From Gemmatimonas phototrophica (GTDB lineage: Bacteria; Gemmatimonadota; Gemmatimonadetes; Gemmatimonadales; Gemmatimonadaceae), in NCBI RefSeq assembly GCF_000695095.2, contig NZ_CP011454.1, forward strand, positions 3,720,001 to 3,784,000: a stretch of 64,000 nt of DNA, in the 5' to 3' direction. Below the pieces are notes generated by a model. The model was not told the origin of the DNA. It saw only the letters and a program-made list of their open reading frames with translations, and did no database searches. Shown here one piece after another: positions 52,518 through 63,714 of the stretch. A program made the position numbers and the translations under genes. How positions within the stretch are numbered: position 1 is the stretch's first letter; every line of letters begins with the position of its first letter.

Positions 52518-54551
52518 ATGGGCTTCCTCGTTCCCGCGTTCCTTGCCGGACTGGCGGCACTGGCCATCCCGTTGCTGCTGCATTTGCGGCATCGTGACCG
52601 CGACAAGCCGCAGCCGTTTCCGTCGCTGATGTTCCTTGAGCAGCTCACCATCCGTACCGAGCAGCGCCAACGGGTAAGTGATTGGCCCCTGTTGCTGTTG
52701 CGGTTGCTGGCGCTCGCGCTACTGGTCCTCGCGTTCTCGCGACCGCTGTTCCGGTCGCGCGGGGTCGCCGCTGGTGATAGCCGCAGCAAAGCGGTGGTGT
52801 TGCTGATCGACCGGTCGCTAAGCATGGGCTACGAGGGGACGTGGGCACGGGCCCTTGATTCCGCGCGGGCAATCATTGGCCGCTCCGGCAACGGGGATCG
52901 CGTGGCCGTGGTCGCATACGATGACGTTGCCGAAACCCGGCAGCGACTGACCACCGACAAGGCGGCGGCCAGTGGTGCCTTGGCGGGGCTCTCCCCGCAG
53001 CCCCGCGGAACGCGACTGGCACCGGCGCTGCGGGTGGCGCGTCAGCTGCTGCTCGATGCGCCCTTTGCGGCGGCGGAGATTGTCGTCATCTCCGACTTGC
53101 AGCGCGCCGGCGCGGTAGGGGTGGCAGGGGTGGAGCTGCCCGCAGGCGTTGCGGTGCGCGGGCTCGCGGTGGGGCCGGAGCAATGGGAGAACAGCACGGT
53201 GCACGCGGTGGATGTACGCCGGGTGCTCAGCGGCGAGCGCACATTGCTGGCCGTAAAGGCGCGGATCCAGCGCCATGGGGGTACCGCACCGCAACAGCGC
53301 AGCGTGCGTCTGGTGCTGAATGGGCGTGAAGCCGCCTCGCAGGCCGTAACGCTTTCGAACAGTGGCGAGTCTGTAGTCACGTTTGATCCGGTACCCGCCC
53401 CCGAAGGGGCGGTGGCGGTACAGCTCGCCCTGTCCCCCGATGCGCTGGCCGCCGATGATACGCTCGTGGCGGTCGTACCTCGCGACAACGACGTGCCGGT
53501 CACGCTGATTGGCGGCGGTGGAACGCCGACCCTCTTTCTGGAGCGGGCACTCAGCATTGGGCGGGCGCCATCCATTCGCGTGGAGCGGGAGTCCGGTCGA
53601 GTACGTCCTTCAGCGCGGACAGGCGTACTGCTGTACTGGGATGTTGTACCCAACGAGAATATTGCGTCGTGGCTGGAAGCCGGTGGCGGGGCGGTGGTGG
53701 TCGTGGGCCCGCAACTTGGTGCGCGTCGTGGCTCCCTGTCTCCGTTGCTGCCGGTCACGGTGGCTGGCGCGGCCGATCGGTTGAGCGATCGTGGTGGCAC
53801 GTTGCGTGACGTGCGTACCGAGCACCCACTCTTTGCCCCATTCCGTGAAGTGCCCGATGCTCTGGGTGCTGTACGATTGTTCCGGTACACCCGCCTTGAT
53901 GCGACGACCGAGGGGGATGTACTGGCGCGCTTTGACGATGGACTGCCGGCGGTGGTTGAACGCCGCATAGGTGACGGGCGTGTGCTGGTGCTGGCCCTGC
54001 CGCTTGATAACAGCGGTGGTGATTTCCCGTTGCAGCCGGCGTTTCTCCCCTTTGTGCGGCAACTGGTGATGCACGCCTCGGGGCGCGATGCCATGCCGCT
54101 CTGGCGCACGACCGGCGAGCGGTGGGCTGTTCCGGGCACACTCACCACGCCAGTGGTCGAGGCGCCGGATGGTTCACTGATCCGGCCGATGGTCGATTCT
54201 CTTGGCGCGGCCGTGCTTCTCACCGACGCCGGCGTGTATCGCGGCTACAGCGAGCGGGTGGGTGGTGAAGCCGGCGCGCTGCTGGCGGTCAATGTCCCGA
54301 CGTCCGAGTCGGTGCTCACGCCCATGGATACCACCGAGCTGTTGCTGGGCGTGCGGACAGGAATGGACAGTGCCCGCGCCACCGGCGATGCGCCGCTAAG
54401 TGATGAAGACCTTGAGCGGCGGCAGTCGCCGTGGCGTCTGTTGTTGGTGGTGGCGCTGGTGCTGCTCGCCGCGGAAACGCTGGTGGCAACCCGTGGCCGC
54501 CGTGGTACCGCCCGCCGTGTTGTTTCGCCGTCTCGCACAACCACGCCATGA
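52518..54551 (+). CDS. BatA-like membrane VWA protein
   Basis: 677 residues. The N-terminus MGFLVPAFLAGLAALAIPLLLHLRH is the BatA domain (first membrane helix), a second helix lies at about 57-74, then a VWA domain with metal site Asp98-Ser100-Ser102 (LLIDRSLSMGY). The long periplasmic part includes a segment with IASWLEAGGGAVVVVGPQL that resembles the amidotransferase-like fold of the first gene in the operon. One C-terminal helix (about 640-656). Such proteins pair with MoxR and DUF58 in aerotolerance-type operons; the actual role is unknown. Confidence 0.85.
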   Translation: MGFLVPAFLAGLAALAIPLLLHLRHRDRDKPQPFPSLMFLEQLTIRTEQRQRVSDWPLLLLRLLALALLVLAFSRPLFRSRGVAAGDSRSKAVVLLIDRSLSMGYEGTWARALDSARAIIGRSGNGDRVAVVAYDDVAETRQRLTTDKAAASGALAGLSPQPRGTRLAPALRVARQLLLDAPFAAAEIVVISDLQRAGAVGVAGVELPAGVAVRGLAVGPEQWENSTVHAVDVRRVLSGERTLLAVKARIQRHGGTAPQQRSVRLVLNGREAASQAVTLSNSGESVVTFDPVPAPEGAVAVQLALSPDALAADDTLVAVVPRDNDVPVTLIGGGGTPTLFLERALSIGRAPSIRVERESGRVRPSARTGVLLYWDVVPNENIASWLEAGGGAVVVVGPQLGARRGSLSPLLPVTVAGAADRLSDRGGTLRDVRTEHPLFAPFREVPDALGAVRLFRYTRLDATTEGDVLARFDDGLPAVVERRIGDGRVLVLALPLDNSGGDFPLQPAFLPFVRQLVMHASGRDAMPLWRTTGERWAVPGTLTTPVVEAPDGSLIRPMVDSLGAAVLLTDAGVYRGYSERVGGEAGALLAVNVPTSESVLTPMDTTELLLGVRTGMDSARATGDAPLSDEDLERRQSPWRLLLVVALVLLAAETLVATRGRRGTARRVVSPSRTTTP

Positions 54552-54567
54552 AGCCGGAGCACAGCTC

Positions 54568-57500
54568 ATGAGTCCCGATCGGCAGTTGCTCACCATTCTC
54601 AGCGCGCTGCGTCGTCAGTGGCGCCTGCGCGTGGGTGTTGAATCGTTGGTGTGGCTGGCCACTGCGGTGGTACTGGCCGTGCTGTCCGCCTTGTTGGTGA
54701 CGCGCCTGTTCGCCGGGAGTGAGACCGGACCGGTGGTCGCACGGGCGGTTGGCTATGGGCTCATTGCCGGGGCGCTGGTGCGTGGATTGCTCATGCCGCT
54801 CCTGCGGCGGGCGTCCGACGAACGGTTTGCGTTGTACGTGGAGGAGCGCGAGCCCGCCCTCAAGCAGGCCCTGCTCACCGCGGTACAAGAGGCGCATGTT
54901 CCGGAGCGTGATCGTCCGTCGCCCACGCTGTCGGCGCGGTTGATGTCGCGGGCCGTGACGGCCATCCGGCCGCTCGAGTCGCAGATGTCCCTCGAGCGCC
55001 CGCAGATGATTCGCGCGGGCCAGCTCTTCGGTGCAGTGTCGCTGGGAGCCGCGGCACTGCTGATCTTTGGACCACAGGCGGTGCGAGACGGCGCCCGCGT
55101 GCTCTTCATGCCCTTCGGCACGGCGCAGGCCGCGGTGCCGGTGCGCATGTTGTCGGTGACCCCGGGCAACATGAGTGTCCCGCGCGGTGGTGCCATTGAA
55201 GTGGAAGCCGCACTGGTCGGCTTTGCGGCCTCGAATGCGGAGCTGGTGTTCCGTAGCGATAGCGCAGGCGCATGGCAGCGACTGCCCATGGCCCCCGACG
55301 CCGACTCGTCGCGCTTCAGTTCGCGTTTGTTCGATATTGTGCAGCCCACCGAGTACTACGTAGAGTCGGCCGATGTGAAGTCGGCGGTGTACACGCTCAC
55401 GGTGAACGACCTGCCAGCAGTGTCGCGGGTGTCGCTGGATTTGCGGTATCCGGCTTATAGTGGCATGCCGGCCGAACACATTGAGGATACAGGAGACCTG
55501 GCCGCAGTCGTCGGCACCACCGTGACAGTGCGCGCCAAGGTGACGCGCGCCGTGGCTGGTGGCTCGTTGCGCTTTGATGATGGCCGCGCCGTGGCTATGA
55601 CACGGGAGAGCGACAGCACCGTGGTGGGGAGCTTCACGGTACAGAAGAGCGGGTTCTATCACGTGGATCTGTCCACCGCTGATGGCACCATGGTGGCGGG
55701 TGGCGTGGAGTATGTGGTAGACGCCATCCCCGATCGCGCGCCCATTGTGCGCATTGAAGAGCCGGGGCGCGACACCAAAGTGACCAATACCGATGAAGTC
55801 ACGATTGCCGTGCAGGCGTCGGACGATCTGGGAGTCACGTCGCTGGAGCTCCGCTATCGCGTGAATGGCGGCGCAGAACAGAAAGTGACCATGGGCAGTG
55901 GCTCGCGTCGTCCGCGTGATGCCCGCGGCGCGCACACGCTGTTCCTGGAGGAGATGTCGCTGCAGCCCGGTGATCTCGTGGCATACCACGCCGTAGCGAA
56001 GGACGGGGCCGGTCTGGTGGGGAGTAGTGATGTGTACTTCCTCGAAGTCCGCCCCTTTGGCAAAGACTATCGTCAGTCGGATCAGCGGGCGCAGCAGCAA
56101 CAGCAGGGCGGCGGTGGGCAACCACAGGGTGATTCTCCTGATGGCTTTGTGGCGCGTCAGCGCGAAGTCGTCGCTGGCACCTTCAACTGGTTGCGCGACA
56201 GCGCCAGCACCAGCGACAAGCAGCGCCGGGAGAACATGACCACGCTGGCCATCGCCGAGGGGCGGTTGCGGGAAGAGGTGGACCAGCTGGTACAGCGCCT
56301 CGCCGAACGCGGCGTGGCGGCGCAAGACTCAACCTTTGCCAAGATTCGCACGGAGCTGAAGCAGGCCACCGTCGAGCTCAAAGGCGCCGAGGAGCAGCTG
56401 GGACGCGTGCGCGGCAATGATGCTCTGGGTCCTGAGCAGCGGGCGCTGCAGCGACTGCAGCGCGCCGAGGCGCTCTATCGCGATGTGCAGGTACAGATGG
56501 GTGGGGGCGGGGGCGGCGGGGGCGGTGGTGGCGGCGGACAGCAGCGCGCCGAAGACCTGGCCGATCTGTTTGAACTGGAGAACGACAAGCAGCGCAACCA
56601 GTACGAAACCGTTCAGCAGCAGCGCGCACAGGATGGCGCGCAGCCGCAGGTGGACGAATCGCTCGAGCGGTTGCGTCAGCTGGCGAGTCGTCAGCAGCAG
56701 GAGAACGAACGTATGCAGCGCATGGCCGAGGCCATGCGGCAGCGCCTGGCTCAGGAAGGGGGCGCAGCGGGTGCGACGGCCGGTGGTAGTGCCGCTGCCG
56801 GCGGGAAATCGTCGGGCAGCCCCAGCGGCAATAGCGGTGCCAGTGGGGCGCAGCGTGAACTGGCCAAACAGGCGGAAGAGGAAGCCCGTCGTCTGGAGCG
56901 ACTGGCCCGCGAGGAAGACAATCAGGAACTGCAGCGGGCCGCGCAGCAGTTGCAGCAGGCGGCAGACAACATGCGCCGTGCCGCCACGGGATCGGCCGCG
57001 CAAGGCAATGCGGCACTCGAAGAACTGAATCGGGCAACCCGCAATCTCGAGGGCGCGCGCGCTTCGGGCACCACCCGTGGCATTCAGCAGCTGGCGGACA
57101 AGGCGCAGGAGTTGGAAGCGCGGCAGCAGCAGATTGCCGAGAGTGTAAAGGGGCTGCAGGGTGCGTCGCCCGGTGAACGGGCGCAGCGGCAGCAGCAGGT
57201 GGCACAGCAAAAGGATCGCTTGAGCGAAGAGGTGCGTCGCCTGGAGAGTGACGCGGATCGCCTGTCACGCGCGGCGCGCCGTGAGCAACCCAAGGCCGCT
57301 GGACAGATCGCCGGCGCTGCCGATGCCATTCGGGATACGCGTCTGGCGGACAAGATCGACTTCTCCAAGCAAGTCGCGCGCAGCGGCAGCGCGGAGTATG
57401 CGGAGTCGTTCGAGAATCAGATTGGCGAAAACCTGCGCGATGTGTCGGAGCGCTTACGGAACGCCTCCGGGTCACTACAGGGCGAATCGGCTGCTCGTGG

Positions 57501-58224
57501 GCAGGAGCGCACGTTGGAGCGTACGCGCGACCTGGTCGCCGGCATGGAGTCGCTGCGGGACCGCATGGCCGAGCGTGGCCAGCAAGGGGGGCAGCAGGGA
57601 CAGCAAGGCCAGCAGGGGCAGCAGGGCCAGCAGGGCCAGCAGGGCCAGCAGGGCCAGCAGGGGCAGCAGGGCCAGCAGGGCCAGCAGGGCCAGCAGGGCC
57701 AGCAGGGCCAGCAGGGCCAGCAGGGACAGCAAGGACAGCAAGGACAGCAAGGACAGCAAGGACAACAGGGCGGCCGTGCCGGTGGTGCTGCACAGGGCGC
57801 GGCGCGCGGCGGCGGGCGCCCCACGAACGAGATGGGCCAGATGGGTGGTTCTGCACCCATGGGAGCGCCTCGTGGCGAGGCGGAGCAGTTTGCGCGCGAA
57901 ATGCGGCTGCGCCGTCAAACGGCAGAAGACCTGCGCCGTGAAGCAGCCGCACAGGGCGTGGGCACGCAGGATCTCGACCGCGCCATTCAGGCCATGCGCG
58001 AACTGGAGAACAGCCGCGCCGGCGGCGACCCGAAGGGTGTGGAGCAGTTGCAGACGGCACTGCTGGAGCGACTCAAGGACTTTGAGTTCTCGCTGTACCG
58101 TGCCGTTGCCGGCACCGGTGAAGGGCGCCCGGCGGTCGGGGCGCGCACGAGCGCGCCGGCGGAGTACCGGCAGATGGTGGAGGAGTATTATCGGGCGCTC
58201 GCAGGGGGACGGAAAAAGCAGTAA
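54568..58224 (+). CDS. DUF4175-like membrane protein with long coiled coil and GQQ repeats
   Basis: A 1218-residue protein. Three hydrophobic segments in the first 165 residues, a periplasmic Ig-like region (about 190-500, with VSRVSLDLRYPAYSGMPAEH), then about 450 residues of Gln/Arg/Ala/Glu-rich coiled coil with an internal run of 14 glycines. Next is a tandem (Gly-Gln-Gln) stretch of 20 units at about 1008-1067 and a helical C-terminus with EYRQMVEEYYRALAGG. The architecture resembles DUF4175. The start at 54568 has GGAG eight bases upstream; the frame stays open upstream inside the previous gene. The stop TAA lies within repeat element C. Confidence 0.75.
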   Translation: MSPDRQLLTILSALRRQWRLRVGVESLVWLATAVVLAVLSALLVTRLFAGSETGPVVARAVGYGLIAGALVRGLLMPLLRRASDERFALYVEEREPALKQALLTAVQEAHVPERDRPSPTLSARLMSRAVTAIRPLESQMSLERPQMIRAGQLFGAVSLGAAALLIFGPQAVRDGARVLFMPFGTAQAAVPVRMLSVTPGNMSVPRGGAIEVEAALVGFAASNAELVFRSDSAGAWQRLPMAPDADSSRFSSRLFDIVQPTEYYVESADVKSAVYTLTVNDLPAVSRVSLDLRYPAYSGMPAEHIEDTGDLAAVVGTTVTVRAKVTRAVAGGSLRFDDGRAVAMTRESDSTVVGSFTVQKSGFYHVDLSTADGTMVAGGVEYVVDAIPDRAPIVRIEEPGRDTKVTNTDEVTIAVQASDDLGVTSLELRYRVNGGAEQKVTMGSGSRRPRDARGAHTLFLEEMSLQPGDLVAYHAVAKDGAGLVGSSDVYFLEVRPFGKDYRQSDQRAQQQQQGGGGQPQGDSPDGFVARQREVVAGTFNWLRDSASTSDKQRRENMTTLAIAEGRLREEVDQLVQRLAERGVAAQDSTFAKIRTELKQATVELKGAEEQLGRVRGNDALGPEQRALQRLQRAEALYRDVQVQMGGGGGGGGGGGGGQQRAEDLADLFELENDKQRNQYETVQQQRAQDGAQPQVDESLERLRQLASRQQQENERMQRMAEAMRQRLAQEGGAAGATAGGSAAAGGKSSGSPSGNSGASGAQRELAKQAEEEARRLERLAREEDNQELQRAAQQLQQAADNMRRAATGSAAQGNAALEELNRATRNLEGARASGTTRGIQQLADKAQELEARQQQIAESVKGLQGASPGERAQRQQQVAQQKDRLSEEVRRLESDADRLSRAARREQPKAAGQIAGAADAIRDTRLADKIDFSKQVARSGSAEYAESFENQIGENLRDVSERLRNASGSLQGESAARGQERTLERTRDLVAGMESLRDRMAERGQQGGQQGQQGQQGQQGQQGQQGQQGQQGQQGQQGQQGQQGQQGQQGQQGQQGQQGQQGQQGQQGGRAGGAAQGAARGGGRPTNEMGQMGGSAPMGAPRGEAEQFAREMRLRRQTAEDLRREAAAQGVGTQDLDRAIQAMRELENSRAGGDPKGVEQLQTALLERLKDFEFSLYRAVAGTGEGRPAVGARTSAPAEYRQMVEEYYRALAGGRKKQ
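57589..57768 (+). repeat. Twenty tandem 9-bp repeats (GGCCAGCAG and variants) coding Gly-Gln-Gln
   Basis: In-frame minisatellite of 20 units of 9 bp inside the DUF4175-like gene, with mostly GGCCAGCAG units, then a cluster of GGACAGCAA units at the 3' end. Near identity of neighbouring units suggests recent slippage and probable copy-number variation; any change by whole units keeps the frame. Confidence 0.9.
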
Positions 58225-61020: not shown

Positions 61021-61533
61021 ATGGCATCGCTCCCCGATGTGCCTGCCGTCCCGTTCCGTCGTTCCATGCCTCTCGATACCACCACCCGAATGCTGGCCCC
61101 GTTCCTCGACCGGTTGTCCCACGAGGAGCTCGACGCCATTCCCTATGGGGTTATTCAACTGGACGCCAATGGCGTGGTCCGGTCGTACAATCGCGTGGAG
61201 GCGTCCCATGTGGGAGGAATCCCCCGCCCCATTGGCCGAAATTTCTTCCGGGATATCTGTCCGAGCGCGAATGCCCCCGAGCTGTTTGGTCGCTTTGCGC
61301 AGGGGATCGACGACCACAAGCTTGACGACACGTTTCAATACACCTTTTCGTGCGGCGACACGCCTCGGCGGGTTCTGCTCCGCATGTACTATTCGGTACG
61401 CACCCGCTCCGTCTGGCTCTTCATTGCGAAGCCCGACGGATCGCCGCTGGACCGCAATATGGAAACGGTCATGCCCATGATCCGGCCGACGCCGTCGCAC
61501 GGCATTGATCTGCGCACCCCACGCGTGGCGTAA
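61021..61533 (+). CDS. PYP-like PAS protein with displaced chromophore cysteine
   Basis: 170 residues; the core (about 31-138) aligns with photoactive yellow protein: IPYGVIQLDANGVVRSYNRV, IGRNFFRDICPSANAPELFG, TFQYTFSCGDTPRRV. Tyr56 and Glu60 correspond to PYP Tyr42 and Glu46, which hold the coumaroyl phenolate. But PYP Cys69 (APCTDSPE) is Ser82 here, while Cys80 stands two residues earlier (PYP Ala67). It may bind the chromophore differently, bind something else, or not bind. There is an extra C-terminal tail of about 30 residues. The start is uncertain: ATG 61066 would give PYP length, and the only Shine-Dalgarno (AGGGGAG, 60994-61000) points to ATG 61005 in another frame. Confidence 0.85.
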   Translation: MASLPDVPAVPFRRSMPLDTTTRMLAPFLDRLSHEELDAIPYGVIQLDANGVVRSYNRVEASHVGGIPRPIGRNFFRDICPSANAPELFGRFAQGIDDHKLDDTFQYTFSCGDTPRRVLLRMYYSVRTRSVWLFIAKPDGSPLDRNMETVMPMIRPTPSHGIDLRTPRVA

Positions 61534-61545
61534 CAGCGGCCAGGG

Positions 61546-63714
61546 TCAATGCGGGCCGCTGCTCCCAGGTGATGGCCGGACCACCCCGCGCAGGAAATCG
61601 AGTCGCAGTTCCACCCACCCACTGACCTGCGCGTACTGCACCCGCACCCGCTGGCGGCCGCCCGGCACGGTGGCGTACGCCGGCGAGGTCTCGTGCGGCG
61701 TCCACTGGTCAATGCGCAGCGTGTCGTTCACCCACACGCGCACCGCATCATCGCTCAGAGTGCGTAGCGTATATGTGCCGGGTGGCAAGACCATCTCACT
61801 GGTGGCCTCGGCGGCGAACTTCGAGACGGGGAACGCGCGGTCGCGCGGACGGGACCAGAACCAATCCAGCCGGGGCGCCTCACGGGAAAACAACGGGGCG
61901 CCCTTCATGAGCGCGTCGAACGCCGCCGGTGCCGTGAACGGGTTGGTACTGTCGGTGAACGCAAATACGCGCTGACTCCAGCGCTGCGTGGGTTCAAAGT
62001 GTTCGTACGCAAACCGCACGGGTGTGCCCGCCACCGTGCGTTGACCACGCGGCGAAATCACCGCGCCTCCCGTGTATTCGAGGGTCACCCGCCAATCGCC
62101 CCGGGCGGCGGCCTCAGGCTCCACCGATAGCGTGTCGCCCACCGTTCCCCGCATGGCCGAGAGACGTGCCACACCGCGACGCTCCACCACGCGCCACCGA
62201 CCGGCCGGCCCCAGCACGCGCAGTCGCAGCGGCGTCGCCCGCACACTGTCGAGCGGCCACAACTTTGGTGAACGCCAGTCGTACGGGCCCCACTCGTCCA
62301 CCACGATGGCCTGACGATCGCGCGCGGCGTTCGGAGTCGCTGGCCACCGCAGCGGTGCACTGGGGATTTCCGGCGTGCGCCACCACGCGGTGGTGGGCAC
62401 AATACGCGCGGGGTCACACGGCTCACCCACACTATCGCGTACCACATTCCGGCCGCTGTCTACCGCGCTGGTGTTGGCGATACGCCATCGCTCCGGAACG
62501 CGCACAAAATGATTCTCGACCAGACGCCACCGGGTGCTGCGGGTGTCACGGTGTTTGGGATAGCCCCAGTCACTCGGCTCAATGGAATCAGCCCAGAGGC
62601 GGATGGCGAGCGAGTCACCAACGAAGTGATTCCCGCCCACCGTATTGTCCTGTCCGTGCTCGATGGCAACAGCAATGCGGTTGTTGGCGAAACAGTTACC
62701 CACCACACGTGAGCCATAGCTGTAGCCACCCCACAGGCCGTGCGTACTGCCTTCACTGCGATTGCCAATGAACTGGTTCCTGCTGAACGTGGCCTCCATC
62801 CCATTCGTAGGGGCGAAGCTGAAATCGTTCATGAGGAACAGATTGTCGTTCGAGCCACCCTGACCGGTGTCCATGGTGTGCTGCCCGGCCCAGAGGAAGA
62901 GGCCGTCGCCACTGTGCGTCATGCTGTTGTACGCCACCACATTGTTGGAGCACTGTTCAAACATGAGCAACGCGGCCGAATCCTGTCCGCGTTGAAAAAA
63001 CCCGTGCGAGGAACCGCGTACGTTGTAGTCCACGCGGTTGTTCACGATGCGATGCCAACTGGCCCGGTACATGCCAATGCCCAGCCCGGAGTTGTACGAG
63101 AAGTCGTTGTCGCGAATGTCGAGTGAGTCGCTGTGCGACAGCAACAGCCCGTTCATGGACTGACGCACCGTATTGCCGGTGAGGCGCCCTCCGGTGACCC
63201 CACGCAGATAGAGCCCCGCCCCAAAGCGCAGCCATTCGTCCTGCTCGTTCTTGTGGTACGATAGCCAGTCGTTCAGGCTTTCATGCTCCACGAGGCTGAA
63301 GAGCCGCGGCTTCCAGCTGTACGACAGCTCATTGTTCTCCAGCACCAGGGCGCGCACGTTGCGCGCCAGAATCCCCACGCGATATCCACGGGCGGTGAGC
63401 CCATGCACGCGGATGTTGCGTCCGCCGTCAATCCGTACTGCCGTCCCGCGGGCAGCATCGGGAGCGCTGTCGGCGGGCTGCCCCACAAAGGTCACGCCGC
63501 GCAAATCAACCGTGATGTTGTTGCCGCGCACGGTGAGCAGTGCGGAGTCGAGCGACACGCGCCCGGGGAGGCGATAGACACCCGGCACAATGCGCACGGA
63601 TGTCGTGATCACCATGCCGGCGGTGGGCTTCACCATGGGCACGGGCTGCGCCTTCGCGGTGGCCGTCCCGGCAAACAGCGCGGCCGCCAGCAGACAGAGG
63701 CGTCTCACAGCCAT
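61546..63714 (-). CDS. Exported right-handed beta-helix protein with C-terminal PA14-like domain
   Basis: A 722-residue exported protein (signal ending GTATAKAQ). Residues about 40-400 form a right-handed parallel beta-helix of the NosD/CASH kind: GGRNIRVHGLTARGYRVGIL, NNVVAYNSMTHSGDGLFLW, GNRSEGSTHGLWGGYSYGS and others with repeated Asn/Gly turns, often found in carbohydrate lyases or epimerases. The C-terminus (about 600-712) resembles PA14: YTLRTLSDDAVRVWVNDTLR, then GGRQRVRVQYAQVSG. It probably binds or cuts a polysaccharide. The start overlaps the upstream methyltransferase gene by 10 bases. Confidence 0.75.
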   Translation of the reverse strand: MAVRRLCLLAAALFAGTATAKAQPVPMVKPTAGMVITTSVRIVPGVYRLPGRVSLDSALLTVRGNNITVDLRGVTFVGQPADSAPDAARGTAVRIDGGRNIRVHGLTARGYRVGILARNVRALVLENNELSYSWKPRLFSLVEHESLNDWLSYHKNEQDEWLRFGAGLYLRGVTGGRLTGNTVRQSMNGLLLSHSDSLDIRDNDFSYNSGLGIGMYRASWHRIVNNRVDYNVRGSSHGFFQRGQDSAALLMFEQCSNNVVAYNSMTHSGDGLFLWAGQHTMDTGQGGSNDNLFLMNDFSFAPTNGMEATFSRNQFIGNRSEGSTHGLWGGYSYGSRVVGNCFANNRIAVAIEHGQDNTVGGNHFVGDSLAIRLWADSIEPSDWGYPKHRDTRSTRWRLVENHFVRVPERWRIANTSAVDSGRNVVRDSVGEPCDPARIVPTTAWWRTPEIPSAPLRWPATPNAARDRQAIVVDEWGPYDWRSPKLWPLDSVRATPLRLRVLGPAGRWRVVERRGVARLSAMRGTVGDTLSVEPEAAARGDWRVTLEYTGGAVISPRGQRTVAGTPVRFAYEHFEPTQRWSQRVFAFTDSTNPFTAPAAFDALMKGAPLFSREAPRLDWFWSRPRDRAFPVSKFAAEATSEMVLPPGTYTLRTLSDDAVRVWVNDTLRIDQWTPHETSPAYATVPGGRQRVRVQYAQVSGWVELRLDFLRGVVRPSPGSSGPH

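Follow-up and report, generated by a model that had tools for sequence, protein, structure and literature searches.

The locus raises the question of what becomes of a PYP-like protein once the cysteine that anchors its chromophore is gone. The Gemmatimonas phototrophica genome (G000) is closed, 4.72 Mb in size and carries reaction-centre genes, and the 64,000-nucleotide stretch analysed here (the window, G000:C1:3720001-3784000) contains a forward-strand open reading frame at 61021-61533 that codes for 170 residues. In the sequence alignment its Tyr56 (61186..61188), Glu60 (61198..61200), Cys80 (61258..61260) and Ser82 (61264..61266) fall at PYP positions 42, 46, 67 and 69. Residues are numbered throughout as in H. 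halophila PYP, with a reference sequence that agrees with the aligned PDB chain except at that chain's own mutation. A sequence-only reading of this DNA had proposed that the chromophore cysteine has moved by two residues with the phenolate-binding pair Tyr42 and Glu46 retained. Translation and alignment agree that a Cys stands at position 67, a Ser at position 69 and that Cys69 is gone. The main text of Xing et al. 2022 uses Cys69, as the site of the p-coumarate thioester, as the criterion for a PYP photoreceptor (PMC9664959), and since position 69 is Ser here and Cys69 is present in 0 of 15 orthologues, we do not class this protein as a PYP photoreceptor.

Judged by sequence matches and a predicted structure, the protein is a genuine PYP-fold, single-domain PAS protein, in agreement with the sequence-only reading, and its likeness to PYP is not due to chance. 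Specifically, it matches TIGR02373 (PYP) with E=1.7e-23 and 83 bits, which is below the equivalog cut-off of 143. Both canonical PYPs of G. phototrophica also fall under this cut-off (109 and 106 bits), indicating that the cut-off discriminates poorly as a test of PYP membership. Every top-ranking PDB sequence match is a PYP (Ppr-PYP 1mzu, E=2e-21), and the AlphaFold2 model (pLDDT 82.5) lies at ~1.3 Å rmsd from PYP crystal structures. The start codon is probably the ATG at 61066 (MPLDTTTRMLAP..., 155 aa, coding sequence 61066..61533 on the forward strand) rather than the one at 61021, since conservation among orthologues starts at MPLDTTTRM, one orthologue has an in-frame stop immediately 5' of the equivalent of this Met and in another the codon there is GTG. 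The C-terminal tail IRPTPSHGIDLRTPRVA (61480..61530, forward strand) is nearly identical in L007-L009, missing from other orthologues and modelled with low confidence. We also observed that the tail IRPTPSHGIDLRT.RVA is almost unchanged in L001 and L007-L009, the cores of which are just ~62-64% identical. The codons of this tail differ synonymously among these four, and thus the tail peptide seems to be selected.

We searched for orthologues in 179 genomes of the family, 395 genomes of the phylum and the named genome collection. This yielded 15 Cys69-less orthologues, one per genome and all within Gemmatimonas, where they occur in half of the 30 genomes. They make up one side of a branch with SH-aLRT support of 99 in an unrooted, quick-search tree of 110 columns in which columns 67, 69 and 98 were masked. 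Position 69 is Ser in 12 of them and Gly in three. All of the 69 other PYPs that we compared (from Gemmatimonadota, Acidobacteriota, Planctomycetota, Myxococcota and Pseudomonadota) have Ala67-Pro68-Cys69, and the existence of one Cys69-less clade against this background indicates a single loss of Cys69 within the sampled set. A search of plasmids returned only four distant PYP records. Position 67 is Ala in seven orthologues, Cys in four and Tyr in four, and three of the four with Cys67 carry Gly69. The alignment thus rejects Cys67 as a clade-wide substitute for Cys69, and the idea of a cysteine moved by two residues does not hold, nor is Cys67 with Ser69 the rule within the clade. Instead, the alignment indicates that Cys67 is a later change in a sub-lineage. 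The proposed retention of the pocket pair holds in part: both residues are present in this protein and Glu46 is found in 15/15 orthologues, but position 42 is Tyr in only 10, with Cys in four and Phe in one. Position 70, which is Thr in PYP, is Ala in all 15.

The Cys69-less gene usually lies between a divergent gene for a sodium:solute symporter (SSF, PF00474; 58876..60849, reverse strand) and a convergent gene for a right-handed beta-helix (NosD-like) protein with a PA14 domain (61546..63714, reverse strand). A wider block with DUF4175 and PhoD genes is kept around it in G043, where the SSF gene lies elsewhere. Adjacency to the SSF gene is thus common and not obligatory, and the functional link between the two is weak because several genomes have the SSF gene without the PYP-like gene (L144-L149) and G043 has the PYP-like gene without the SSF gene beside it. 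As a side observation, the DUF4175 protein (54400-58224) has a long, collagen-like Gly-Gln-Gln repeat in its C-terminal region (57417-57860), and the orthologous proteins of G043 and G053 match Pfam Collagen. Among the 30 Gemmatimonas genomes, some of which are incomplete, nine have both the Cys69-less protein and the canonical PYP2, six the Cys69-less protein only, 13 PYP2 only and two neither. Reaction-centre genes (PF00124) are present in 10 of the genomes with the Cys69-less gene and absent from five, and a link of this gene to phototrophy is rejected on this count.

G. phototrophica also contains two canonical PYPs, PYP2 (G000:3385499-3385888) and PYP3 (1271637-1271981), each with Tyr42, Glu46 and Cys69. 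The sequence-only reading had called for a look at the genes of chromophore synthesis. A predicted TAL is indeed encoded in this genome, but it belongs to the operon of PYP3, 2.5 Mb from the Cys69-less gene, and none of the 11 AMP-binding enzymes in the genome could be singled out as a pCL. The best solved relative of the PYP3-operon lyase is 2o6y, at 465 bits, with the leading member of the next group at 320. NLVYHLCSG in the lyase lines up with NLVHHLASG in 2o6y. We take 2o6y, the PDB title of which reads 'putative histidine ammonia-lyase', to be the R. sphaeroides tyrosine ammonia-lyase, and the His in this motif to be the selectivity histidine. On these sequence grounds the lyase is probably a TAL, and p-coumarate is probably made in G. 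phototrophica for its canonical PYPs. Neither TAL nor pCL genes are adjacent to the Cys69-less gene, whose neighbours code for the SSF and NosD-like proteins. This is weak evidence, since the main text of PMC12826048 reports TAL in only 5% and pCL in 32% of pyp operons. The PYP3 genes form a same-strand run (L090:2009-8614; G000:C1:1266008-1272613) coding for a coiled-coil protein, PYP3, a 198-residue protein, an HDOD protein, a 491-residue protein and the TAL-like lyase. The 198- and 491-residue proteins belong to no known family, and the N-terminus of the latter resembles the former. Relatives of these two and of the coiled-coil protein are also encoded next to the PYP3 orthologues of L107 and L118, and the run is a possible PYP signalling module.

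We then considered the genomes in which the Cys69-less protein occurs and no canonical PYP was found, namely G043 (closed), G047, G049, G050, G051 and G058. In G043, G047, G049 and G050 (each at least 91% complete) we found the genus-general lyase only and no second aromatic lyase. G051 and G058 do have a second, divergent PF00221 lyase (L168:3-1091 and L167:9155-10564). These were rejected as TALs, being 37-39% identical to the G. phototrophica TAL with YHG in place of YHL, and no relative of the PYP3 operon was found on the stretches analysed. Attachment of p-coumarate to Cys67 in place of Cys69, which was the main idea of the sequence-only reading, would fit this one protein, where Cys67, Tyr42 and Glu46 occur together in a genome that has a TAL and canonical PYPs and so probably makes p-coumarate. 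We nevertheless regard it as scarcely credible, given that just 4/15 orthologues have Cys67 (three of these with Gly69), that Tyr67 in four members would fill the site and that a second lyase was not found in the four genomes named above.

Loss of the chromophore site could also mean that the protein arose as a duplicate of a canonical PYP, serves no function today and is decaying. In all 36 pairs of genomes that have both, the Cys69-less protein has diverged further than PYP2 (mean identity 63% versus 85%), and the gene is missing in half of the genus. G055 contains a frameshifted relic in the same SSF/NosD gap (L145:1118-1303; tblastn E=2e-6 in a small set searched) that still reads YPSAN, and G046 has a short, weaker, probable tail relic, RPSPVHGVDSHTRRVA, at the SSF/NosD junction (L146:2953-3000; E=0.013). 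These relics indicate that the gene was lost in these sister species. However, the 15 orthologous reading frames are intact, the N-terminal cap is more conserved than that of PYP2 and dN/dS in close pairs is 0.036 (L007/L008), 0.059 (L005/L006), 0.10 (L004/L005) and 0.20 (L012/L014), indicating purifying selection on retained copies. Decay without function is thus highly improbable as an account of the clade. The claim of the sequence-only reading that this is not simple decay is borne out for the retained copies by dN/dS, while decay does hold for the G055 copy. With half of the genus lacking it and at least one sister species holding only a decayed copy, the gene is useful but dispensable.

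The cysteine that the clade conserves is a second one, absent from the sequence-only reading. This residue, Cys111 of the 170-residue frame (61351..61353), occupies PYP position 98, which is Cys in 14 of the orthologues and His in one, and is Cys in none of the 69 comparison PYPs. One explanation is that the protein is a redox sensor in which Cys98, alone or, in some members, jointly with Cys67 or Cys42, becomes oxidised or enters mixed disulfides. The near constancy of Cys98, an independent change of Tyr42 to Cys in four members and Cys67 in four would agree with this, as would a precedent in the main text of Xing et al. 2022, where redox neofunctionalisation was proposed for the Methylobacterium Ppr-PYPs that lack Cys69 and have acquired Cys42/Cys50 (PMC9664959). 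Cys67/Cys98 is a candidate cysteine pair for a redox PAS here, but Cys98 is the sole cysteine of the predicted L010 and L014 proteins, which means that an intramolecular disulfide cannot be the mechanism of the clade, and one member has His98. We consider redox sensing rather unlikely. A further explanation has a chromophore or other ligand in covalent linkage to the new Cys98 on the other side of the pocket. It would draw on the clade-specific Cys98 and the constant Glu46, and the title of PDB entry 2i9v calls position 98 a gateway to the PYP chromophore site. The free variation of Tyr42 and position 52, the lack of any tie to TAL genes or canonical PYPs and the His98 member make it very unlikely.

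Conservation along the protein points to its N-terminal cap. The cap (61066..61143, forward strand) is where the clade is best conserved, with a mean pairwise identity of 0.81 (PYP positions 8-27) versus 0.57 for the core (p=0.001), which is the reverse of canonical PYP2 (0.54 versus 0.80, p=0.0006). The excess conservation of the pocket over the remaining core seen in PYP2 (0.92 versus 0.77, p=0.035) is gone in the Cys69-less protein (0.64 versus 0.56, p=0.27); these column tests are descriptive and ignore shared ancestry. The cap is the part of PYP that moves in signalling, and by this analogy the conserved cap is likely the output surface. A conserved cap and a pocket as variable as the remaining core are also what would be expected of a ligand-free adaptor, in which the PAS domain serves protein-protein contact only. 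Position 52 and the 99-101 loop are free to vary, but Glu46, Pro68, Ala70 and Cys98 are constant or nearly so inside this otherwise variable pocket, and we consider such an adaptor unlikely to about the same degree as redox sensing. Inheritance or structure may explain in part why Glu46 and Cys98 do not vary among these 15 related sequences.

Engineered PYP provides a guide to what the pocket might do. FAST carries C69G and changes at 94-101 that include Y98T (PMC6037777), and its binding of phenolic ligands is reversible, the phenolate being held by Glu46 (PMC8633346). The FAST-like anatomy of the clade (Ser/Gly69, a changed 97-101 loop and constant Glu46) favours a functional PAS sensor without covalent p-coumarate, which we consider the probable, if not assured, nature of the Cys69-less protein. 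With Cys69 absent the thioester has no anchor at its normal position, and substitution of Cys69 in PYP impairs p-coumarate binding according to the main text of PMC9664959. We propose a PYP descendant whose Cys69 would have been lost a single time, in the common ancestor of a clade within Gemmatimonas, giving way to Ser (to Gly in one branch), after which the protein would have been kept for a new job, probably the sensing of something other than light. Such a protein would carry no thioester-bound p-coumarate and would not run through the photocycle of PYP. The pocket, now reshaped, has Glu46 as a hydrogen-bonding anchor and Cys98 at the entrance; it would most likely take a small non-covalent ligand, possibly phenolic, or be read through the redox state of Cys98, and its state would be relayed through the cap to a partner protein encoded elsewhere. 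Non-covalent binding of p-coumarate and light sensing are also possible. Of these readings we favour the small-ligand pocket, as a tentative first choice, followed by Cys98 redox sensing and the ligand-free adaptor together. More doubtful than the small-ligand pocket is the specific suggestion of a natural FAST-like receptor, with a reversible, Glu46-anchored phenolic site, or of a ligand re-attached on the far side of the pocket, at Cys98. The sequence-only reading had raised a different ligand and a signalling PAS free of chromophore, and these two remain the best readings.

The clade constitutes a natural experiment in which a photoreceptor lost its chromophore anchor while canonical paralogues remained intact in the same genomes for comparison; after one ancestral loss, selection persisted, the signalling cap stayed conserved and the pocket changed. 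If a ligand is found, this would describe a route from a light sensor to a chemical or redox sensor and a natural counterpart of the FAST tag, and if the FAST-like or Cys98-ligand reading is true, a photoreceptor lineage turned chemoreceptor. If there is no ligand, a chromophore-free PYP adaptor would be documented. Cys69-less PYP homologues are already known, with Cys69 substitutions in several PYP branches noted in the main text of Xing et al. 2022 (PMC9664959); Dohmen et al. 2025 analysed, per its main text, only PYPs that contain Cys69 (PMC12826048). The main texts of these two papers do not describe the Gemmatimonas clade, our literature search found no dedicated study of Gemmatimonas PYPs, and the clade appears to be undescribed.

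Relative to PYP (TIGR02373; H. halophila PYP and R. centenum Ppr-PYP), the Cys69-less protein shares the fold (~1.3 Å, 33-42% identity in fold alignments), Glu46, Pro68, Trp119 and, in this member, Tyr42, but it lacks the thioester chromophore site, has Ala in place of Thr70 and has gained Cys98. It is like the Methylobacterium Ppr-PYP of the PMC9664959 main text in its loss of Cys69, its new pocket cysteines and a proposed change of function. However, the latter are histidine kinase domains with Y42C/S50C, whereas the Gemmatimonas protein is single-domain with Cys98 and a constant Glu46, and as far as sampled the two losses are separate. With FAST/Y-FAST the clade shares Gly/Ser69, a changed residue 98, a variable 97-101 loop and a retained Glu46; FAST is man-made and was selected for fluorogen binding, and the likeness of the Gemmatimonas clade to it is one of sequence anatomy.
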